NCBI GenBank assembly: GCA_009786575.1
Contig: WQRV01000006.1
Location: 1 to 39,528, forward strand
Length of the DNA: 39,528 nucleotides
Direction: 5' to 3'
Origin: Chitinispirillia bacterium
GTDB lineage: Bacteria; Fibrobacterota; Chitinivibrionia; Chitinivibrionales; Chitinispirillaceae
The notes beneath the pieces are model-generated. The model ran no database searches and was not told the DNA's origin. It saw nothing but the letters and a program-made list of their open reading frames with translations. This document shows, one piece after another, positions 1-28,543 of this stretch (positions within the stretch are counted from its first letter, which is position 1; each line of letters begins with the position of its first letter). The position numbers were made by a program, and so were the translations under genes.

Positions 1-3000
1 ACGCCCTTCTCTGCCCACTGCTTCCGCGCGGCAGGCACGGATTTCGGGAATCTCTCCCTATGGCCGTCTGGGATCCCGGCCTCGTCGGCGCGGCCAAAAC
101 GCCGTGAAAACGCTACCCCTCTATCCTCCACATATGCCCGCGTCTTCTCGGCGCGGGCGCCGGGCTTTGCCGGGTCGTAGGTGACGTAGGGGATGGAGTT
201 GCTTTCGAGTGCGGTCTTCAACTGCTCGTTTGTGTTTTCGGGTACGATAACGCCCTTGATCTCGTCTAAACGCACCGCGCAGCGGGGCTTGGCCTCGAAG
301 TACTCGGTGGGCATGGATTTCAGCTTGAAGAGTAACCTGCCTATGTCCTTTTCGAGTTTGGGCTTGTTTTCTATTTTAGATTCGGCGTACTGCTCAAACT
401 CGGTCAGCCTGCGGATTATCGCCGTCGGTGCCGTGCGCGGGTTTCTCGCGTAAGCCGCCGCCATGTCCGCCACCGCCTCGGAAGCGTCACCCAGCGCGTC
501 AAAGCTACGGAGCCTGCCGCCCTCGTTCATGCGCTCGATCAGCCCAAGCAGGCGGTTCTTATACTCCTCGTTCAGTTTATCGTAGTCAGCCTCGTCCATG
601 TGGCGGAGCCGGTCAGAGCCCTTGCGTATGGCGTCAACGCTCTTGAAGTCCTCGGTGCCCGCAGCCACAACCGTACTCAACCCCGGCACGAAAGAGTTAT
701 TTGCCTTTGGCTTCTCCGACCGCATGGCCCGAACAATGTTCTCAAGGGTAACTTCATCGTGCAGCACTTCCCAGTCGCGGCGGTTGCCCATGTTGGTAAA
801 GAAACCTTTGCTGTTCCGCACCCCGCTCTTCTCCACGGCGCCGGCAAATACTTCTTCTAACCACGCGCCGTATTCCCTTGCCAGTTCAGGGTTATCCTCA
901 ATCCGCTTGCGCAGCGCCCCCTCAGTCTCGACGGTGTCAATCTCCTGCCCGGCCCCGCCGCGGTTGTAATAAAATACTCCCTCCAGGATGCCGTCCATAA
1001 GATTGAAATCAAGCGGCTTCTCGTAGATCGCGGCGCGCCTGTCTTTACCCGCCCCAACAAAATAATCGTGCATAATCTTACGAATCCGCGGCTCAAGCCG
1101 GTCTCTACCCTTCGCATCCAATTCGTTCCACGCCCGCGCCGCCTCGGGTATCTCGCTTATGATCCGCTCGTACACCTCGTTATCGTATTTACCATAACGT
1201 TTCTCCGTCATAACCTGGTCAACGGACTCGCCGCGTTCAAGAAGGAAAGCGGCCATCATGCCAGGCTCGCGCCTGTAGTGAGACGCAATGCCCTCCTGCC
1301 CGCCGCTGTTCAGGGTATTCTGCAGGTTAACGCTGTCAAGTGCTAGGGTACGCCCCAGCTCAGCAAGCCCCTCCGACTGAAGCCGGTTGAGTATGCGCCC
1401 GCGCAGCCTCGGTATCATCTGGGGGTTGAGCTTGTGCCCGATCTGCGGAAAGGTCGGCGTCCAGGCGTCGCCGCCGTGAACCCTGTTATCCCGGCTGGCC
1501 GCCGGGTCTATGGTCTCCCGCCCGAAAATGACCGTAGTGTCGCCGTAACGGTCGTGCGGCATGTCCTTCTTCATAACGGCTATGGACGGCATGGGGAAGC
1601 CGCCGAGCCGGATGGTGCGGAGAAGCTCCGGTTGGGTAAGGTTGTGCAGCGCCACGAGGTTCCGGTCAGCGGGCTGGGGACCGGGGGCGGTGGTCTCCAC
1701 GTTCTCCCGGCGGGAGAACTGGATCCGGGCGTCGCGGGCTATGCGGGCGGCGCGGTCGGATGGAGAGACTCGGCGGTCTTTGGGGGTAGACTGGACCCGG
1801 CGCGGCGGACGCGCGGGTTCGGGTGCGGCGGGGGCGGATTGCGGTTCGCCGGAGGCGAGTTGCTTCTTGAGCGCGGCGAGTTCTCTTTCGAGGTCGGCTA
1901 TGCGCTGGTCGGCAGAACTTTCGGTGGAGGTTACGTCGCGTCGAAGATGTGCTTGATGTCGCTCGTCCTCCTTTGAATGTACCGATCGATCTCCGCCTCG
2001 GTCATCCCCATAGCCCTGCGTGTCTGCCTGAGCCTCTCCTCTGCTCGCTGCAAAGGAGTCAGTTCTGTTTTGTGAGTTTTCGTGGACATTGTTATTTTCT
2101 CCCTCTACACCACCACGAGTTCCGGGTATGCGTAGGCCAGATCCTCGGCTGCCTCGCGTTTTATTCTGGCCCATTCCTCCTTCGTGAAGCGCTGGCTGAT
2201 TATCGCCTCCACTTCGTCCGGCGTTGACCCCTTCGGTATTCCCAGTCTCTTCCAGCGTGTTTCCATGCTCATAAGTCTCCCCTTTCCCTATAGTTTTATT
2301 ATAGCGTAAATTTTTCTGATTTGCAACACTTTTTTGAATTTTTGACACATCAGCAAGATTTTTCTTTTTTTGGTATTCTGCAATAGCCTCCGCCTTACTC
2401 CGCGCTTCTTTGAATGGCGTTGTGCTGTCCCCCTTTATAAGGCCGTATGCTGTATGAAGCGCACCCGTATTCAGGAACCCGTCGTACCCCTCTATTCGTT
2501 TGGGGTAGACGATGTTGTTTATTCCCTGAGTTTTTCGTTCTTCGCCCATCCTGCGCTCAATGTCTCGCCGCATAGACCTCACGTCACCAACATCATTATA
2601 GCCAACCCACAGCGTCACATATTCATCGCTTCCAAACTTGCCAATAATACCACCGAGTTCATTTGTCGTATTGACGTAAATGTCGCCAATGACGGCGCGC
2701 AGCGCAACGTCGGCTTTCCCGTGGTCGTTTTTAAAATGCGCGTTCAGGCCGCCGAGATTGCCAATGTCCATAGCCTCAAGAATAAATGGGGTGTTGCTCG
2801 CCTGTAATTCCTCGTAGATATCCTTCAGCATTTGCTGGGGCAGTATCTCGTACCCCTCAAGGCCGCCCAAACCGGCAGACTCCCGTACCGTTTCTTTCTT
2901 CTCAGCGATCTTATCCTGCCGCATACTCTCCCGCTGCCCCTCCGGGTATTTCAGCAGGTTCGCCTCTGCGTCCGCACTTAGTTTCGGGGTCATCATCCTT

Positions 3001-6000
3001 TCGCGCTCCGGCGCAAACCGTGTCACGTGCTGTCGCTGCCGATCAATATGCCTGTCCAAAACGGGACCTATCGGAGTGCGGCTATCTTGCCGTCTATCCA
3101 CCGTGCGGCGATCCGCTGCGCTATCCTGCCGCCTGTCCCCCCGCCTCACCGAGAACTGCGCCCCCTGCGCGGCGTTTGCGCTCGTTTGCGCCCTTGCCCC
3201 GCCGCCGCTCTCCCGGAAGACCGTGCCCACCGCCGCCAGCTTCCCATCGTTTAGCCCGTGCGACCGCTCGACGATTGCCTCGTAGACCGCCTTGCGCATC
3301 TTGTCTAAGTTTGTCGCGTATTGGGATGTCGGCCCACCGCCGATGGCGCGGCCCTGCTCCGCCCCCGCAAACTCCCTCGCGGCAGCGTATGCCTTATTGA
3401 TGATTTGCAATAGCCTGCCAAAAACACTGTTAAAGGCGCTGCGGCGGTTCTCCCCGAGGCTGGCCCACATCTTCTCGTCGGAGATGATATCCCCCCAACG
3501 GTCGGAAATGAATTCGTCCATGACCTTGTCGGCGGATATGTCTAAGTTCTCGCGTTTCGCGATGCGCGCCAGTTCCACCAGCCCTTCTCCGGTCATTCCC
3601 TCGAGCACCATCTTGGTAAACTGGCGGGTCAGATCCGGGTCAGACTCCCTCATGGAGTGGGAGAGTTCGTGGCCGATCGTCCAGTTGAGGGCCTTTTGCA
3701 GGTTGGCGGCATTAATGAAGATTGTGTTTGCAAGGCGTTCGTCGTCTTTCACGAAGACCCCGTTGAAGTCGGTATCAACACCGGCGGCATCTACCTCAAC
3801 AGGCACCACCTCCAACCCAAACCTCTCCGCTACGTCAGCCAGAAGGTCACGGCGATCCCTCTCTGTGCCGTCCAAGTCCCGCACGGTGTCGCCGTCTACT
3901 ACCCTTATGGCACCCTCCCGCGCGTTGACGCGGGCCCGGAGAATATCCACTTTCTGCTCCGCGGTGAGGGGGGCCTGTTCCGTTGGCGGCTGGGCCGCCG
4001 GTTCACCTGCAGGTTGGGCCGCCGCCGGTCCTTGCGTCTCCTGCGGCCACCCCGGCGTCTCCGCGTCTTCATGCCCCATGGCCTCCCGCAACTCCCGCTT
4101 GTACTTCGACTGCCTGTCGAGACGTTCCTGCCGATATTTTTCATGGGCAGCTTCCCTCTCTTCCGCGCGCAGTTCTTGCGGGGTAGCCTCGTTCGGATCG
4201 CGCCCAACCCCCAGCCTCTCGCGCAGCGTATTGAATATCTGCGGGCCCTGATGCGCCGCGTCGCCCTCGTCAGCCAGCCCGTCGTACGCAGACTCTATCT
4301 TCTGAGAGCCTATCTCATTAGATATGTCCCGCCCGCGCCGTGCCGCCTCCTGCATCTGGCCTTGCATGTCCTTATTTTGCGCGAAGTCGCCCGCGTTATC
4401 AACGCCAGTCTCCGGCATTGCCGCGAGGTTCTGCGCGTGCTCCTTCTGCGCCCGCACCTCCCGCCCTGCCTGAGCATACGCCCCGCTACGCATACCAGCT
4501 ATTCCGCCGCGCACATGGCCCACGCCGGCACCGGCGAGTACAAGGCCGGCCAGACCCGGCCCCGCCTCATCAAATGTAGCCCTTACAATATCCATGAACG
4601 GCACATGGTCGAGGTTTATACCCTGCTCTGCAAGGGCCTTCCGCACCGCGGCGTCCTGTATAATTTCCTGGCCTACCTCTTCCGCAATCTCCTGAGGCAC
4701 CTTCCCGCCGGCACGCAGCCCGGCAGTCACCAACCGTCTTCTGAAAGACCCCATTGCCGGCTGGCTCAATTTTGTGATATGCTTTACCTGAAGCCTCTCT
4801 ATAAGCGCATAGCCAACTGCGGCCGCCAACAGCCCATCCGCCGCCTCTACGGGGTTCCCGCCATGCATCGCAACATCGCCGGCCATCGCCCCCATAGCCT
4901 GTTTGGTCCACATCCCAGAAGATAATAGGCTGCCGATACCGGGAATGGCATCCAGCGCGCCGCCTTTGACCATCAGAGGGAGCATGTTCGCCATTCCGTC
5001 CGTCATCTTATCAAACCACCCGGCATTCTCCATACTCTTTGAGTGGTCACCCATCTCGTCGCGAACGCCTCGCTGTATCCTCAGGGCGTGGTCCAGGCGT
5101 TCTTTTGCAAACTCATTCTTGCTGTCCATAGCCGTCTCAAGCGCGTCGGCCACGAGAAAGTCTGCGTTACCGCCTATATTGCCCAAGGCTGCCGAGCGGC
5201 GCGCGCTTTTCGGCATATCGCGAATCTCGGCAAGATTCATCTGTAATTGGTCCGCGCGGAGGAACAGCGGGTCCGTTTCGTCCGCCTTTCGCGCCCGCGC
5301 TATACCCGCCTCTCTCACAGCCGCGCCGCGCTCCTCGCGGGGCGCTATGCTCTCATACGCTATATAAGCCGACAGCGCCTCGCGCTCCGGCTGCTTTAGC
5401 CCGCCGACCATATCTGCGGGCGGCTGGAGGAACGGGTTTGCCGAACGCGCTGTTCGCGTTTCATCAAGCCACTCCCGGAAACCGGGTATTCTCTCCGCCG
5501 TGCGGCTCCCCTCACTCACCGCCGCAGGGGTAATCCCCTCTCGCAATGCAATGGCACCCTGCTCTATCGCCCCGCCGCGCCGCCGCGCCTCATTGCCGAG
5601 GAGGCGGTTAGTCTCGGCTATGACCACACCGTCGATACCACGGCCAAACAAACCTGAGGAACATTTGGACCCGCGCTCCTCGGCATCACTCATTACCAAC
5701 CGGTCGGCTACCACCGGGGGCATCCGCATCTCGGTAACCACAGTCTCTACATCCGGGGCAGAGGGCGCCTGTGGGCGCAGTGGGTCAATGACCGGTCGAG
5801 GCGTAATAGTGGTGGCTGGCGGCGGGGACGGCGTCATTGTGGATGACGCTGGGGCCGAAGGACGCGGAATTTCCGGTGGCAATGGCGCATCTGCATCCGG
5901 CGGCGGCGCGTCCATCAGCCCAGCCTGCTGCAGTACACGGCGCTCGCTCTCGCGGGGGTTAAACGCGCGAGGGTTATTCATGCCCTTGCCGGCAGCGAGG

Positions 6001-6104
6001 CCTGCGCCTAAAGACTGCGGAGGCGGCGCGGCGTCTTCAGCCGGCGGCGTTAACACGATGTATTCCCCAAACCGACGAAGGAAATCATTAAAATTATCTG
6101 CCAT
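1..6104 (-). CDS. Giant polyvalent / internal virion-type protein (3' end beyond the left edge; at least 2034 codons)
   Basis: ATG at 6104 (MADNFNDFLRRFGEYIV...). One minus frame read by eye to base 1 without a stop; ATG 2771, HELSH and FSRR are all in this frame. Contains TIGHELSHSM (HExxH), MDIGNLGGLNAHF...GKFGSDEYV (GGDEF-like), LHNLTQPELLRTIRLGGFPMPSIAV and a Gly/Ala-rich hydrophobic stretch. Not in the ORF track because no stop lies in the window. Confidence 0.88.
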   Translation of the reverse strand, partial: MADNFNDFLRRFGEYIVLTPPAEDAAPPPQSLGAGLAAGKGMNNPRAFNPRESERRVLQQAGLMDAPPPDADAPLPPEIPRPSAPASSTMTPSPPPATTITPRPVIDPLRPQAPSAPDVETVVTEMRMPPVVADRLVMSDAEERGSKCSSGLFGRGIDGVVIAETNRLLGNEARRRGGAIEQGAIALREGITPAAVSEGSRTAERIPGFREWLDETRTARSANPFLQPPADMVGGLKQPEREALSAYIAYESIAPREERGAAVREAGIARARKADETDPLFLRADQLQMNLAEIRDMPKSARRSAALGNIGGNADFLVADALETAMDSKNEFAKERLDHALRIQRGVRDEMGDHSKSMENAGWFDKMTDGMANMLPLMVKGGALDAIPGIGSLLSSGMWTKQAMGAMAGDVAMHGGNPVEAADGLLAAAVGYALIERLQVKHITKLSQPAMGSFRRRLVTAGLRAGGKVPQEIAEEVGQEIIQDAAVRKALAEQGINLDHVPFMDIVRATFDEAGPGLAGLVLAGAGVGHVRGGIAGMRSGAYAQAGREVRAQKEHAQNLAAMPETGVDNAGDFAQNKDMQGQMQEAARRGRDISNEIGSQKIESAYDGLADEGDAAHQGPQIFNTLRERLGVGRDPNEATPQELRAEEREAAHEKYRQERLDRQSKYKRELREAMGHEDAETPGWPQETQGPAAAQPAGEPAAQPPTEQAPLTAEQKVDILRARVNAREGAIRVVDGDTVRDLDGTERDRRDLLADVAERFGLEVVPVEVDAAGVDTDFNGVFVKDDERLANTIFINAANLQKALNWTIGHELSHSMRESDPDLTRQFTKMVLEGMTGEGLVELARIAKRENLDISADKVMDEFISDRWGDIISDEKMWASLGENRRSAFNSVFGRLLQIINKAYAAAREFAGAEQGRAIGGGPTSQYATNLDKMRKAVYEAIVERSHGLNDGKLAAVGTVFRESGGGARAQTSANAAQGAQFSVRRGDRRQDSAADRRTVDRRQDSRTPIGPVLDRHIDRQRQHVTRFAPERERMMTPKLSADAEANLLKYPEGQRESMRQDKIAEKKETVRESAGLGGLEGYEILPQQMLKDIYEELQASNTPFILEAMDIGNLGGLNAHFKNDHGKADVALRAVIGDIYVNTTNELGGIIGKFGSDEYVTLWVGYNDVGDVRSMRRDIERRMGEERKTQGINNIVYPKRIEGYDGFLNTGALHTAYGLIKGDSTTPFKEARSKAEAIAEYQKKKNLADVSKIQKSVANQKNLRYNKTIGKGETYEHGNTLEETGNTEGVNAGRSGGDNQPALHEGGMGQNKTRGSRGSGLRIPGTRGGVEGENNNVHENSQNRTDSFAASRGEAQADTQGYGDDRGGDRSVHSKEDERHQAHLRRDVTSTESSADQRIADLERELAALKKQLASGEPQSAPAAPEPARPPRRVQSTPKDRRVSPSDRAARIARDARIQFSRRENVETTAPGPQPADRNLVALHNLTQPELLRTIRLGGFPMPSIAVMKKDMPHDRYGDTTVIFGRETIDPAASRDNRVHGGDAWTPTFPQIGHKLNPQMIPRLRGRILNRLQSEGLAELGRTLALDSVNLQNTLNSGGQEGIASHYRREPGMMAAFLLERGESVDQVMTEKRYGKYDNEVYERIISEIPEAARAWNELDAKGRDRLEPRIRKIMHDYFVGAGKDRRAAIYEKPLDFNLMDGILEGVFYYNRGGAGQEIDTVETEGALRKRIEDNPELAREYGAWLEEVFAGAVEKSGVRNSKGFFTNMGNRRDWEVLHDEVTLENIVRAMRSEKPKANNSFVPGLSTVVAAGTEDFKSVDAIRKGSDRLRHMDEADYDKLNEEYKNRLLGLIERMNEGGRLRSFDALGDASEAVADMAAAYARNPRTAPTAIIRRLTEFEQYAESKIENKPKLEKDIGRLLFKLKSMPTEYFEAKPRCAVRLDEIKGVIVPENTNEQLKTALESNSIPYVTYDPAKPGARAEKTRAYVEDRGVAFSRRFGRADEAGIPDGHRERFPKSVPAARKQWAEKG

Positions 6105-17965: not shown

Positions 17966-20080
17966 CTATGCCATCCCCGGCTGTGTGTGCATCATCCCAC
18001 CCCCGCCACCCGGCGATTGTATGAGGTCGGATATCTGCGCCGCTTCAGGCGTGTTTACATGGTTTACTCTCGGATCGCCCGCATACTGCTCTTCCTCCGG
18101 CGGCGGGAACTGCACCGGATACGCGCCCTGATCAACCCCCTGCGCGCCGCCTATCATCGGCTGCTGCTGGGCCATCGCCTGCTGCTGCCACATCTGATCA
18201 AGCGACATCTGTATCTGCTGGCCTTGCAGCGTATCGCTCTGCAGGGCCACCTGCAAAGCGGAGATGTTCTTCATCTGCATCATCCGCCCGGTGATAATCG
18301 CGCGCTCGCACGCCGACTTAATATTGTCCTGCTGGTCAGCCTGTATCGGGAGCGTATTCATTAGTGTCGTCTGCATGATTGCGTGCAGTTCCGGCGATAC
18401 GGACGGATCGAGGTTGCGCAGCATCTCGCCGGCAAAACCCTGCTGGCGTGCCGTGAACGTCGGAGATTTCGCGTTCTCGGTTACTACCACCCTGCAGCGC
18501 GGAAGGTCCTCAACGGAATTATGCACTACCCCGCCCTCGCCAGGCTGATTGAGGGTGAGACGCCGCCCGCCCTTGAGTTCAACCGTATGGGGAGCGCCGC
18601 TGTTGTTAATCTGCCACTGGTAGAAGAAACCCTCGCCGATGTTGTTAATAAACTGACGCATCCGGCGATTAAAGCCGGTGTTGGTAATAAGGTTGAGCTG
18701 GAACTTACGCTCAAATAAAATACCGCTGTCCCCGCTCTCCGTGATAGAGCTCAGCGCGTCCGACGCGCGAGACAGCAACGGCAAAAAATCCTTCAGCATG
18801 CGCGCGCTCTGATTAAACGCCGCATCCGGGTACTGATTGTTGGCTAAGTGCATATAAGGCCGCTGCGAGTGCGACAGGGGGACAAAGAACGGATGCCCCG
18901 GCCTGTTTTTGTTTTTCGCGAACTCTTCTTTGGATCCGGCTTTAAGGAAGAGTTCGTCATCATAAAACGTCGCCCCGCCGCCCGCCGAGGCGATCATCTC
19001 GGTAATGAGGGACTCGCGCTTATTAATCGTCTGCTGCAGGTCAATCAAATCCTCCACGATTCCCATATCCTGACCACCCTGGCGCTTCGCCGTAAGGTGG
19101 TAAAACGGCAGCCCGTTAACCTGCACATCGCTCTTGCCATGCTCCACGAGCGACATCTGGAGAGACTCGCAGACCGTGGTAACATAGTGCATCCTGTCCT
19201 CGTAGGGCGACTCTTCTATGCTGAAGGGGTCTATATTATTAAGCTCGGCAAAGTAACTGCAATACGCTTCGTCCCGGTTGATGGGGAATACCACCCACTG
19301 CTGGGCATCCCTGCGGCGGCCAATGAGGCGGTTGCCCTTAATGCGTTTAAGGTAGTGCTTCTCAACGATCTTGTACTCATCCCCCACTATATTATCAAGG
19401 TGCTGCTTGGACTGCCGGCCGCCGCTGGGAAATTCAAGGGGGTTGGCCTTCATCTCCCTGATCCGCCGCTCTATCTCGTCGCTCTTGAAGCTGTACTCGT
19501 CTTTGAGCTGCTCGGGCGTCAGGTAGCGGAACCTGTACAGGAGTTCGCAATCGCGGTCGTTATTGGTCGTCCAGCGAGGATCAAACACCACGCGCCCGGG
19601 CTCCTCGCGGCTCAGGCGGATGCGCTTGGAACCATACCAGTTATTAACATGCAGATACGCGCAGCCCGAATGGATAATCGCGTCAAGGAACACGTCGTTG
19701 ATGGTAGAGTCGTAGTCGAACAGCTCCTTGTCAGAGTAATACGCCTCGGCAATAGCTTCCGTAACATGCGAACCCTCGCCCTGCACCGGCGCCCACGACA
19801 GGTCGGGTATGTCAGAGACAAGCGACCCGACCAGCGCATCTATTTTGGGGCCAATAACATTAAACTGTGTCGCGGGGCGGCCCTGCTCAAACAGCACCTT
19901 CAGGTCCTCGGCGTCCCACTGCCCGCTGTTCGCGCCAAAATACATCGAGCGGGCTTTGTTGCAGCGGCTGCGGTCATTCGAGCGCGCGGATACGGCGCGG
20001 CCCGCCTCGTTGATCACGTTGCGCGCCAACTCGTAATCGCTCGACATCCGCTCCTTGTAGCTGCCGGGGGTGGTAATCAT
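17966..20080 (-). CDS. Portal protein (P22-like)
   Basis: 704 aa; MITTPGSYKERMSSDYELARNVINEAG...ATQFNVIGPKIDALVGSLVSDIPDLSWAPV matches the P22-type portal N-terminal pattern. Confidence 0.85.
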   Translation of the reverse strand: MITTPGSYKERMSSDYELARNVINEAGRAVSARSNDRSRCNKARSMYFGANSGQWDAEDLKVLFEQGRPATQFNVIGPKIDALVGSLVSDIPDLSWAPVQGEGSHVTEAIAEAYYSDKELFDYDSTINDVFLDAIIHSGCAYLHVNNWYGSKRIRLSREEPGRVVFDPRWTTNNDRDCELLYRFRYLTPEQLKDEYSFKSDEIERRIREMKANPLEFPSGGRQSKQHLDNIVGDEYKIVEKHYLKRIKGNRLIGRRRDAQQWVVFPINRDEAYCSYFAELNNIDPFSIEESPYEDRMHYVTTVCESLQMSLVEHGKSDVQVNGLPFYHLTAKRQGGQDMGIVEDLIDLQQTINKRESLITEMIASAGGGATFYDDELFLKAGSKEEFAKNKNRPGHPFFVPLSHSQRPYMHLANNQYPDAAFNQSARMLKDFLPLLSRASDALSSITESGDSGILFERKFQLNLITNTGFNRRMRQFINNIGEGFFYQWQINNSGAPHTVELKGGRRLTLNQPGEGGVVHNSVEDLPRCRVVVTENAKSPTFTARQQGFAGEMLRNLDPSVSPELHAIMQTTLMNTLPIQADQQDNIKSACERAIITGRMMQMKNISALQVALQSDTLQGQQIQMSLDQMWQQQAMAQQQPMIGGAQGVDQGAYPVQFPPPEEEQYAGDPRVNHVNTPEAAQISDLIQSPGGGGGMMHTQPGMA

Positions 20081-25748: not shown

Positions 25749-25934
25749 CTACGCCCTCTCGCACTTCTCCGGCCCGGGACACCTCGACATCACACAATCC
25801 CCGCGCCGGCAATCAGGCTGGGGGAATATCTTGCCGAAGTTCTCACGGAAGTTATGCATCCCCTCCCGAACATCCCGCCCCCTCCACTCCACACCGTACG
25901 CAGACGGCACATTTACTCCGTTAGGTTTTGACAT
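25749..25934 (-). CDS. Small Cys-rich protein
   Basis: ATG 25934 overlaps the TerL stop (TAATG); MSKPNGVNVPSAYGVEWRGRDVREG...PQPDCRRGDCVMSRCPGPEKCERA. Confidence 0.6.
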   Translation of the reverse strand: MSKPNGVNVPSAYGVEWRGRDVREGMHNFRENFGKIFPQPDCRRGDCVMSRCPGPEKCERA

Positions 25935-27967
25935 TATGACGCCATCCACCCGCCTGCGGACTTTTCCGGCTGCCGCGCCGCCGCATAATCGGCCCGCTTC
26001 CGCTCGCGAAGTACCACGATCTGCTGACGGAGCTCCGACGCGATCAGGCACAGTGCCTCGCCGTACCCGCACCCGCGCTCAGGACGCTTGCCGCCCTCCT
26101 CATAGCACCACCCCGCGACCGCCACCCCCAGTTCCGCGGCGCCGTGCAGTACGTCAACGTGCACGTCCTGGAACATCTGGCCCATAAACGCTATAGCGCC
26201 CGGCTCGTCGTGCTTCATAGCGCGGGACAGCCGCACCGGCACCTGCAAGGCGCCAAGCTCGTTATTTATAAGCTGGGCAATACCGCGCTGGCCTGGGGTT
26301 CCAAACATATCCTCATTGCCGAGCAGCTTGGTTCCATGCACAACGCGTAGCGCCGAGCGCATGGTCATGTAAGACGCAATCTGTACCGCGTTGATGTCGG
26401 GCCACCGCTTGGCCTCGTACACGCAGAGGTAGCTCTCTATGGGGTCGTACGCAGCAGCCGCGTAAACCGCCGTACCGTCCGGCGCGCAGACCACCGCCCC
26501 AACGTGCAGATTTTTGAACATTACCGCGCGGTTCGTCAGATCAACGCGGGGGCCTGGCTCGCGGATATAGTCCGCAGACCACTCCGGCCATACCCTCTTG
26601 AGAACCGTCAGCATCTTGTGTGCCCCGTCCACGCTGTCTATCTGGTCACGCTTCTTCATGGGGAAGCTCCCGGCCTCGGCAAGGAAAGGCTTGTTCCACT
26701 CCCCTTCCACGATATACACCCGCCCAAACTCCGCGGCGGCGGCAAGGGGCTTCGCGCGCTCAACCTTATCGCCAGACACCGGGTCAGGCTTGCAGGTAAA
26801 CCCCGCCAGCATGCCTATCATGTGATGGGAGTTAAGTTTACCCGCAGACGCCTTCTCCTCCTCCCACGCCACCATAACGGGCCGGCCGTCCCGCTCCGCC
26901 ACCGCCCGCACACGCTTCAACGTCTCCCCGGGCGTAGCGCGGAAGCGCACGATGTCCATGATATAGGTATTCCCGGCATGAGTACCAAGCAAGGCCCCAG
27001 ACGTCCAGTCAGGATCGTTATTGTCCCTGACCTCCGTCGCCGCAAAGTCCCAATACCGGCACATCTTAATCCCCTGTGGCAGCTGCGACGCCTGAATCTT
27101 AATGAACCACGACGGGTCAAACATCCCGCCCGTGTAGCTGATCCGCCAGTTGCCCTTGAGCAGCCGCTCGCGGGTTACGAGGTCTTGGGCGTACAGGTTG
27201 CGCTTATAATTAGGGTCCCGGGCAAGCAGGGCCGGGTTGTCGTCTACGGAGGCCGATATGAACGTGAAACTAAACGGCTTTACTCCGTCTGGGCCACGCC
27301 ACTTCCTGTCCACCCAAACTACCTTATTATCCTCTATGGTGAAGAACTTTATGACACCCGAATGCTTGGGGATGGGATAGCCGCCCTCGTCTATGTACCA
27401 CTCAATGAACTCCACCACCCAGCTGTCGGCGTCCGGGTTGCACGTGGCAACCATCCGGCAGCGGCGGTCAAACCCCGGCGGTGGGCGCAGTCTGGATATC
27501 ATGTACAGAAACTGGCTGCGCTCGAACGTCGGCAGCTCGTCGAACCCTATGAAAGAATACTGCGCCCCCTGGTGCCTGAAGCGGTCGTTCTCGTGCTGCA
27601 TGTGCGAGAACTCAACCCGCGCCCCGGACGGGAACACGTACTTGCTCTCGTTTTTCCCCACGCCCCCCATAGCAGGGTAAATCTCACCGGCGGTGTCCCA
27701 GAGGCCGCCGCCCGCGACAATCTCAGGGTGCGTCCGGCGAAATATTATGGCTCGGTGCTTAGGGTGGTCATAGTACCGGCCCCCAAGCAGCACCGTGGCA
27801 AAAGACTTGCCGCCGCCGGCCTGGCCGCCGTAAATAATTATATCCGCCTTGGAACTGCAAAAATCCCACTGCGGGCCCTCCTGCGGGCTAATCCTCGGGC
27901 GGGCGTCAGTCTGGGTCGCCGTAGCCATAAGCACCGCCAATATGATTAATACCCATATACGCGCCAT
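25934..27967 (-). CDS. terL: Terminase large subunit
   Basis: Walker A YGGQAGGGKSFA; FRRTHPEI...; downstream nuclease-type region CRYWDFAATE...; follows TerS. The true start may be ATG 27928 (MATATQTDARPRISPQEG). Confidence 0.9.
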   Translation of the reverse strand: MARIWVLIILAVLMATATQTDARPRISPQEGPQWDFCSSKADIIIYGGQAGGGKSFATVLLGGRYYDHPKHRAIIFRRTHPEIVAGGGLWDTAGEIYPAMGGVGKNESKYVFPSGARVEFSHMQHENDRFRHQGAQYSFIGFDELPTFERSQFLYMISRLRPPPGFDRRCRMVATCNPDADSWVVEFIEWYIDEGGYPIPKHSGVIKFFTIEDNKVVWVDRKWRGPDGVKPFSFTFISASVDDNPALLARDPNYKRNLYAQDLVTRERLLKGNWRISYTGGMFDPSWFIKIQASQLPQGIKMCRYWDFAATEVRDNNDPDWTSGALLGTHAGNTYIMDIVRFRATPGETLKRVRAVAERDGRPVMVAWEEEKASAGKLNSHHMIGMLAGFTCKPDPVSGDKVERAKPLAAAAEFGRVYIVEGEWNKPFLAEAGSFPMKKRDQIDSVDGAHKMLTVLKRVWPEWSADYIREPGPRVDLTNRAVMFKNLHVGAVVCAPDGTAVYAAAAYDPIESYLCVYEAKRWPDINAVQIASYMTMRSALRVVHGTKLLGNEDMFGTPGQRGIAQLINNELGALQVPVRLSRAMKHDEPGAIAFMGQMFQDVHVDVLHGAAELGVAVAGWCYEEGGKRPERGCGYGEALCLIASELRQQIVVLRERKRADYAAARQPEKSAGGWMAS

Positions 27968-28543
27968 TCAATTGTCCCCCTCGTCCACGTCCACGGGATT
28001 ATATGAATCGTTATCCGGCAGGATAATTAACGGTGGCAGCGGCTGCCCCCCGCTCGTATGGTCAACACTAACGGACTCCTTAAATAGCCCGTACCGCTTC
28101 CCAAGCAGCTCCTGCGCCTTGGTCATCTCAACCTGATCCGGCAGTTTCTTGACAGTCTTTTCCTCAGATCGCCCTTCGCCCTGCCCAAGAACGACAACCA
28201 CCTCCGACTCGCTGAGCCCGCGGGCGGTGGACGTCAGCATCTCCAGCACCTCGTTCGCGTCGGCAATACGCTCAGACCGGAGCGCGGCCAGGACCTCTTG
28301 TATATACGCGGAGACTTTGGGATTTTTAAGAAGCTTCGAGGCAGACGCGGCCGCGCCATAGTACGACACCGCCCCCGGGTGCGAAGCCTGATACGCGCGG
28401 GTAGCATTAAGGTCCTTGAGGTACTCCTCACAGAACGCCTTATGCTTCTCGCACATCGCATCATCCGCAGACCTCACCGGGGGCTTCCTTGGTGTCGGGG
28501 TTGCAGACGTCTTTTTCGCAGGTTTTTGAGCCTTGGCCGCCAT
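27968..28543 (-). CDS. terS: Terminase small subunit (Terminase_2-like)
   Basis: KHKAFCEEYLKDLNATRAYQASHPGAVSYYGAAASASKLLKNPKVSAYIQE. Confidence 0.85.
   Translation of the reverse strand: MAAKAQKPAKKTSATPTPRKPPVRSADDAMCEKHKAFCEEYLKDLNATRAYQASHPGAVSYYGAAASASKLLKNPKVSAYIQEVLAALRSERIADANEVLEMLTSTARGLSESEVVVVLGQGEGRSEEKTVKKLPDQVEMTKAQELLGKRYGLFKESVSVDHTSGGQPLPPLIILPDNDSYNPVDVDEGDN

Follow-up and report, generated by a model that had tools for sequence, protein, structure and literature searches.

The window under study is the whole stretch of 39,528 nucleotides analysed here, from a Chitinispirillia bacterium, and all the window features described below are located on its minus strand. The genes of the large and small terminase subunits were found at positions 25934 to 28543 (phrog_979, E = 5e-130, and phrog_51, E = 1e-34) and a portal protein gene at positions 17966 to 20080 (phrog_156, E = 4e-35), both in a late-gene context. 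The terminase, portal and head genes are followed, on the same strand, by a giant gene, which has the late-virion-gene position characteristic of polyvalent proteins. In the window this gene spans positions 3 to 6104 in the list of open reading frames and remains open at the left end, so that only 2034 residues are present, corresponding to codons 1 to 2034 of 4468. The complete gene, coding for 4468 residues (L015:112-13518), was recovered on a contig of 55,178 bases (IMG/VR 3300027864_000994) identical to the window over the 8,951 bases compared. The contig end within the giant gene (window 1-116) is a stretch of 116 bases that recurs about 1 kb further on with 96.6% identity, and this repeat sits around the repeated ART-PolyVal region. 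Because the stretch is repeated in the same gene, the contig was probably broken there. At its other end, the longer contig carries a tyrosine-recombinase-like integrase gene, read by eye. Near that same end, a gene at L016:3373-3999 (minus strand) exhibits a CxxxCxxC motif (CPRQCPWC) and possibly encodes a radical SAM enzyme.

The Pfam matches in the whole 4468-residue protein are PBECR5, ART-PolyVal, LPD3 and a weak PBECR3. Several ART-PolyVal stretches and two copies of LPD3 make this an unusually rich polyvalent architecture. Within the window, the PBECR5 nuclease-like domain is located at positions 1077 to 1670 (PF18814, E = 1e-44) and a zincin-like metallopeptidase motif region at positions 3615 to 3773 (phrog_1516, E = 6e-4), in which the HELSH sequence (HEXXH) can be read directly at 3657-3671. 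The protein combines the large size and the unrelated enzymatic domains (zincin motif, GGDEF, PBECR5, ART-PolyVal, LPD3) by which polyvalent proteins are recognised.

Between these two elements lies a GGDEF-fold domain (about residues 1083 to 1255, window 2340-2858), in which the sequence MDIGNLGGLN starts at residue 1112, corresponding to window position 2771. A first-pass annotation made from the letters alone had proposed a GGDEF-like domain in the giant protein, and this proposal is borne out by the predicted fold, by an independent profile and by profile-profile comparisons. AlphaFold yielded two models with pLDDT values of 89 and 94 (pTM of 0.88 for the latter). The GGDEF fold, whose absence from a structural model had been named as grounds for refutation, is present: for each of the two models, the top 50 matches of the fold search against the PDB were all GGDEF domains. 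The TM-scores of these matches are moderate (about 0.6, with rmsd of 3.5-8 A), which marks the domain as a diverged member of the fold. The independent profile was built from 16 phage relatives, excluding the window sequence and its nearest homologue. It detected the window domain with an E-value of 1.7e-12 over 180 residues, compared with 0.45 for the best among 200 shuffled proteins, so the match is beyond chance. When the profile of the branch family was compared with that of the cyclases encoded in the host genome, the E-value was 5e-17, and it was 1e-6 when the two closest sequences alone were used. Searching the PDB with the family profile using hmmsearch retrieved 43 distinct sequences, the top ones being GGDEF proteins (best E = 5e-10).

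The single sequence of the window was far less informative. It gave no GGDEF match (PF00990) in Pfam, where the curated score was not reached, and weak matches to diguanylate cyclases in NCBIfam (E-values of 0.02-0.03). Nothing significant was obtained in the single-sequence searches against Pfam, the PDB (phmmer) and GenBank phages, or with a peptide pattern on genome contigs. The family first became visible through a homologue from the same genus, described below. Taken with the models, the profile results strongly support the reading of window 2340-2858 as a complete GGDEF-fold domain, real but unusual.

This homologue (L018) was the one strong match of a tblastn search over 169 genomes of the phylum (Chitinispirillales, 41% identity, E = 9e-50). 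It belongs to a giant prophage protein of 2741 residues and carries VGGDEF at the same place. In a BLASTP comparison of the whole proteins, the sole aligning stretches were the GGDEF module and LPD3. The best-conserved module common to both (residues 965 to 1307, window 2184-3212) aligned with 36% identity and an E-value of 1e-53. That this is the best-conserved stretch between otherwise diverged giant proteins suggests that the GGDEF module is under purifying selection. Directly downstream of the domain, at window 2250-2330, a short motif is common to the window protein and L018 (YNKTIGKGETYE, YNDGIGKGENYE). This motif, which a stretch of another relative, L077, resembles, may be a linker or a processing site. 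A third homologue, in a gammaproteobacterial genome, was found from the window and L018 sequences (Pfam GGDEF, E = 1.9e-12).

From the shared stretch DxxNLGGLNAH we derived a DNA pattern for searching the branch. All 15 exact matches in IMG/VR fell in reading frames of 578 to more than 3,000 residues, with the remainder of the GGDEF domain downstream. A looser pattern yielded 13 further matches, of which 7 were members and 6 were dropped as chance matches, on account of wrong context and profile scores of at most 15 bits. As a result, 25 members were found, from uncultured phages and prophages. By its sequence, the window domain is one of a phage-associated GGDEF branch that is marked by DxxNLGG[LIM]N and that we call NLGG. 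Selection of the members used the nine leading residues of this motif and not the GGDE located about 45 residues later, and GGDE is found in 22 of the 24 aligned members. Within the branch, 13 of 18 members reach the Pfam GGDEF model at an E-value of 0.01 or better (best 2.5e-14). In the tree, NLGG splits from canonical cyclases with support of 94/94; the window sequence and L018 form a long sub-branch, and L077 aligns with both. The proteins of the branch relatives also carry InPase, ART, kinase, LPD5, LPD22, LPD38 and RadC domains. In two further giant phage proteins, L045 (LYRHGGDEF) and L049 (LFRVGGDEF), the GGDEF domain falls outside NLGG, which suggests that giant phage proteins captured GGDEF more than once.

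Among the GenBank phage records searched, none was recognised as carrying the NLGG branch. Two matches (H5 and H6) were set aside as bacterial cyclases because their neighbours are ordinary bacterial genes, and Pseudomonas phage Y11 (H8) gave a weak, unannotated match. Plasmid matches were rejected as chromosomal-type DgcP genes (E-values of 0.2-0.5).

The active-site residues were numbered after PleD through the alignments and general knowledge of the PleD structure. There, D327 is the first metal-binding Asp, N335 the base-contacting Asn, D344 the reader of the Watson-Crick edge and K442 the phosphate-contacting Lys. The equivalents of the first two in the window copy, Asp1113 (2766-2768) and Asn1121 (2742-2744), are invariant in all 24 aligned relatives, as are Asp1160 and Glu1161 of the signature. 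Lys1246 (2367-2369), the equivalent of K442, is a Lys in 22 of 24. Asp1132 (2709-2711) corresponds to D344, a placement somewhat dependent on the alignment because a two-residue insertion just precedes it in the window's sub-branch. At this position the branch is divided between 12 Asp and 12 Asn, the window copy having Asp and its closest relative Asn. Loss of the metal-binding acids in close homologues had been proposed as evidence against the domain; the metal Asp and the signature Asp-Glu pair are in fact kept in both closest homologues, and these residues together with the base Asn are invariant in 24 of the 25 members. The 25th, L059, reads GAGRM at the signature and is probably dead, the site being lost.

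The window copy has the metal Asp, the signature acids and the base-pocket Asn expected of a GGDEF domain, and departs from the GG[DE]EF consensus. Its signature, GSDEY (residues 1158 to 1162), has Ser for the second Gly and Tyr for Phe, and the usual Arg before it is Lys. The positions given in the first-pass annotation, 2619-2633 for GSDEY with the LGGLN stretch upstream, are exact. The description of this region as mirroring the GGDEF core stands as regards the metal Asp and the signature acids; NLGGLN, however, differs from the canonical DxDxFKxxND and identifies a distinct phage branch. We found the GS signature in no branch member other than the window copy. An error of base calling in a single assembly does not account for the Ser: the DNA of the domain, including the Gly-to-Ser change, is present at 100% identity in three IMG/VR records, perhaps not all independent as two of them share the left end of the window. 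With GSDEY in the window, GGDEF in L018 and QGDEF in L077 side by side, the signature glycines are drifting in this sub-branch while the acids are unchanged. In other cyclases, the first-glycine variants AGDEF and SGDEF are active (PMC3974145). In an evolution experiment that selected for raised cyclic-di-GMP, mutations brought a naturally occurring GSDEF cyclase, PFLU5960, into use (PMC4395868). In the literature we found no study that directly assayed Ser at the second position. Catalysis by the NLGG branch is likely, and the chances that the GSDEY copy of the window is itself active are about even.

The claim that no RxxD inhibition site precedes the signature also proved right. The window copy reads ExxG at that place, and RxxD is absent from all 24 aligned branch members, against its presence in 7 of 8 host cyclases. 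This site is common in active diguanylate cyclases and is not obligatory.

Compared with canonical diguanylate cyclases (PF00990; PleD, WspR, DgcB), the window domain shares the fold, the metal Asp, the base-pocket residues Asn and Asp, the Asp-Glu of the signature and the Lys of the last helix. It differs by NLGGLN in place of DxFKxxND, by the missing RxxD and by the Ser for the second Gly, and the protein lacks the kinds of regulatory domain that usually accompany GGDEF. Like the Hypr GGDEF enzymes (GacA; PMC6456294), the NLGG branch often departs from a strict Asp at the Watson-Crick-edge position; unlike them, it has Asp or Asn there instead of Ser or Thr, the window copy having Asp, and so falls outside the Hypr definition. 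The presence of GGDEF in polyvalent proteins was reported in 2017 by Iyer et al. (PMC5512222), with WP_004096050.1 from an Acetonema longum prophage as an example, and is described there as not very widespread. The proteins of that report and the window protein share a GGDEF domain within a very large prophage protein with zincin and ADP-ribosyltransferase domains. The window protein adds PBECR5, LPD3 and GSDEY, and the text of that report consulted here discusses no separate branch, missing I-site or base-reading residue. A search of the literature on GGDEF with polyvalent proteins found no later paper describing the NLGG branch. What appears to be new here is a coherent phage GGDEF branch defined on its sequences.

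Several readings of the domain were weighed. A motif that arose by chance within a low-complexity linker would fit the missing Pfam match of the single sequence, but is refuted by the distance between the profile match and the best shuffle (1.7e-12 against 0.45), by the conservation in L018 and L077 and by the confident fold. We similarly reject a relative of the mCpol or Cas10 palm, or another palm domain, as very improbable: all these proteins have the palm fold in common (PMC12657218), but the top 50 PDB fold matches were GGDEF domains without exception, the family profile led to GGDEF proteins, and the GGDEF motif is nearly absent from mCpol proteins (PMC12657218).

The two other readings concern the activity of the domain and its product. 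That it might be a dead GGDEF domain, binding a nucleotide or cyclic dinucleotide or having simply a structural or sensing role within the giant protein, is a serious although clearly less probable alternative. It draws on the signatures of the window copy (GSDEY), L077 (QGDEF) and L059 (GAGRM), and on the observation that roughly one GGDEF domain in four is degenerate at the signature, some of them acting as receptors (PMC3974145). All the acidic and base-contacting residues are nevertheless kept in the window copy, as they are in 24 of the 25 members, AGDEF and SGDEF variants are active elsewhere (PMC3974145), and an I-site for classical c-di-GMP binding is lacking. A cyclase making another product (e.g. 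cGAMP or c-di-AMP), directed against nucleotide-based host defence or acting as a decoy for it, seems to us rather improbable. The even division of the branch between Asp and Asn at the Watson-Crick-edge position speaks for it, as does the Ser of Hypr enzymes, which broadens their substrates to other purines (PMC6456294); polyvalent proteins are, moreover, proposed as anti-defence weapons (PMC5512222). Against it, the window copy has the guanine-type Asp, and the host genome bin yielded no SMODS nucleotidyltransferase (CBASS-type). In the same bin, GGDEF was matched 14 times and EAL and PilZ once each, so that a c-di-GMP circuit is available for perturbation. On the whole, we lean, with some reserve, towards a virion-delivered GGDEF-fold cyclase domain, from a branch with invariant catalytic residues and without RxxD.

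GGDEF enzymes are dimers at work, and the single GGDEF domain per chain of the window protein counts against the virion-delivered cyclase; the domain would need a second copy as partner. From its gene context, the giant protein probably enters the virion together with the DNA and is delivered on infection. Packaging with the virion and injection were proposed for the polyvalent-protein class in PMC5512222, which already joins injection to nucleotide signalling, the same general idea of function. After entry, the zincin metallopeptidase may release the domains. If active, the GGDEF domain would join two purine nucleotides into a cyclic dinucleotide with no feedback shut-off. The substrate would most likely be two GTP, given the Asp at the base-reading position, and the cyclic-di-GMP signalling of the new host would be pushed at entry. 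A broader proposal, which we hold to be unlikely, is that NLGG domains are phage-evolved, feedback-insensitive cyclic dinucleotide synthases carried in virions and falling into two specificity classes (guanine for the Asp type, adenine or mixed products for the Asn type), flooding host signalling or jamming cyclic-nucleotide defence at entry.

Phages are mostly known for destroying or soaking up cyclic nucleotide signals. A virion-borne family of signal-making enzymes without product inhibition would, if true, reverse that picture, and would give a direct handle on phage action in the first minutes of infection of a cell. With 25 sequences and the Asp/Asn division, what the 2017 literature mentions in passing becomes testable with a few purified domains. 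Finally, three unannotated PHROGs of unknown function, 14602, 9661 and 5594, match 12, 12 and 7 of 18 aligned branch domains, respectively, and could be annotated as GGDEF. None of the three is matched by the window copy.
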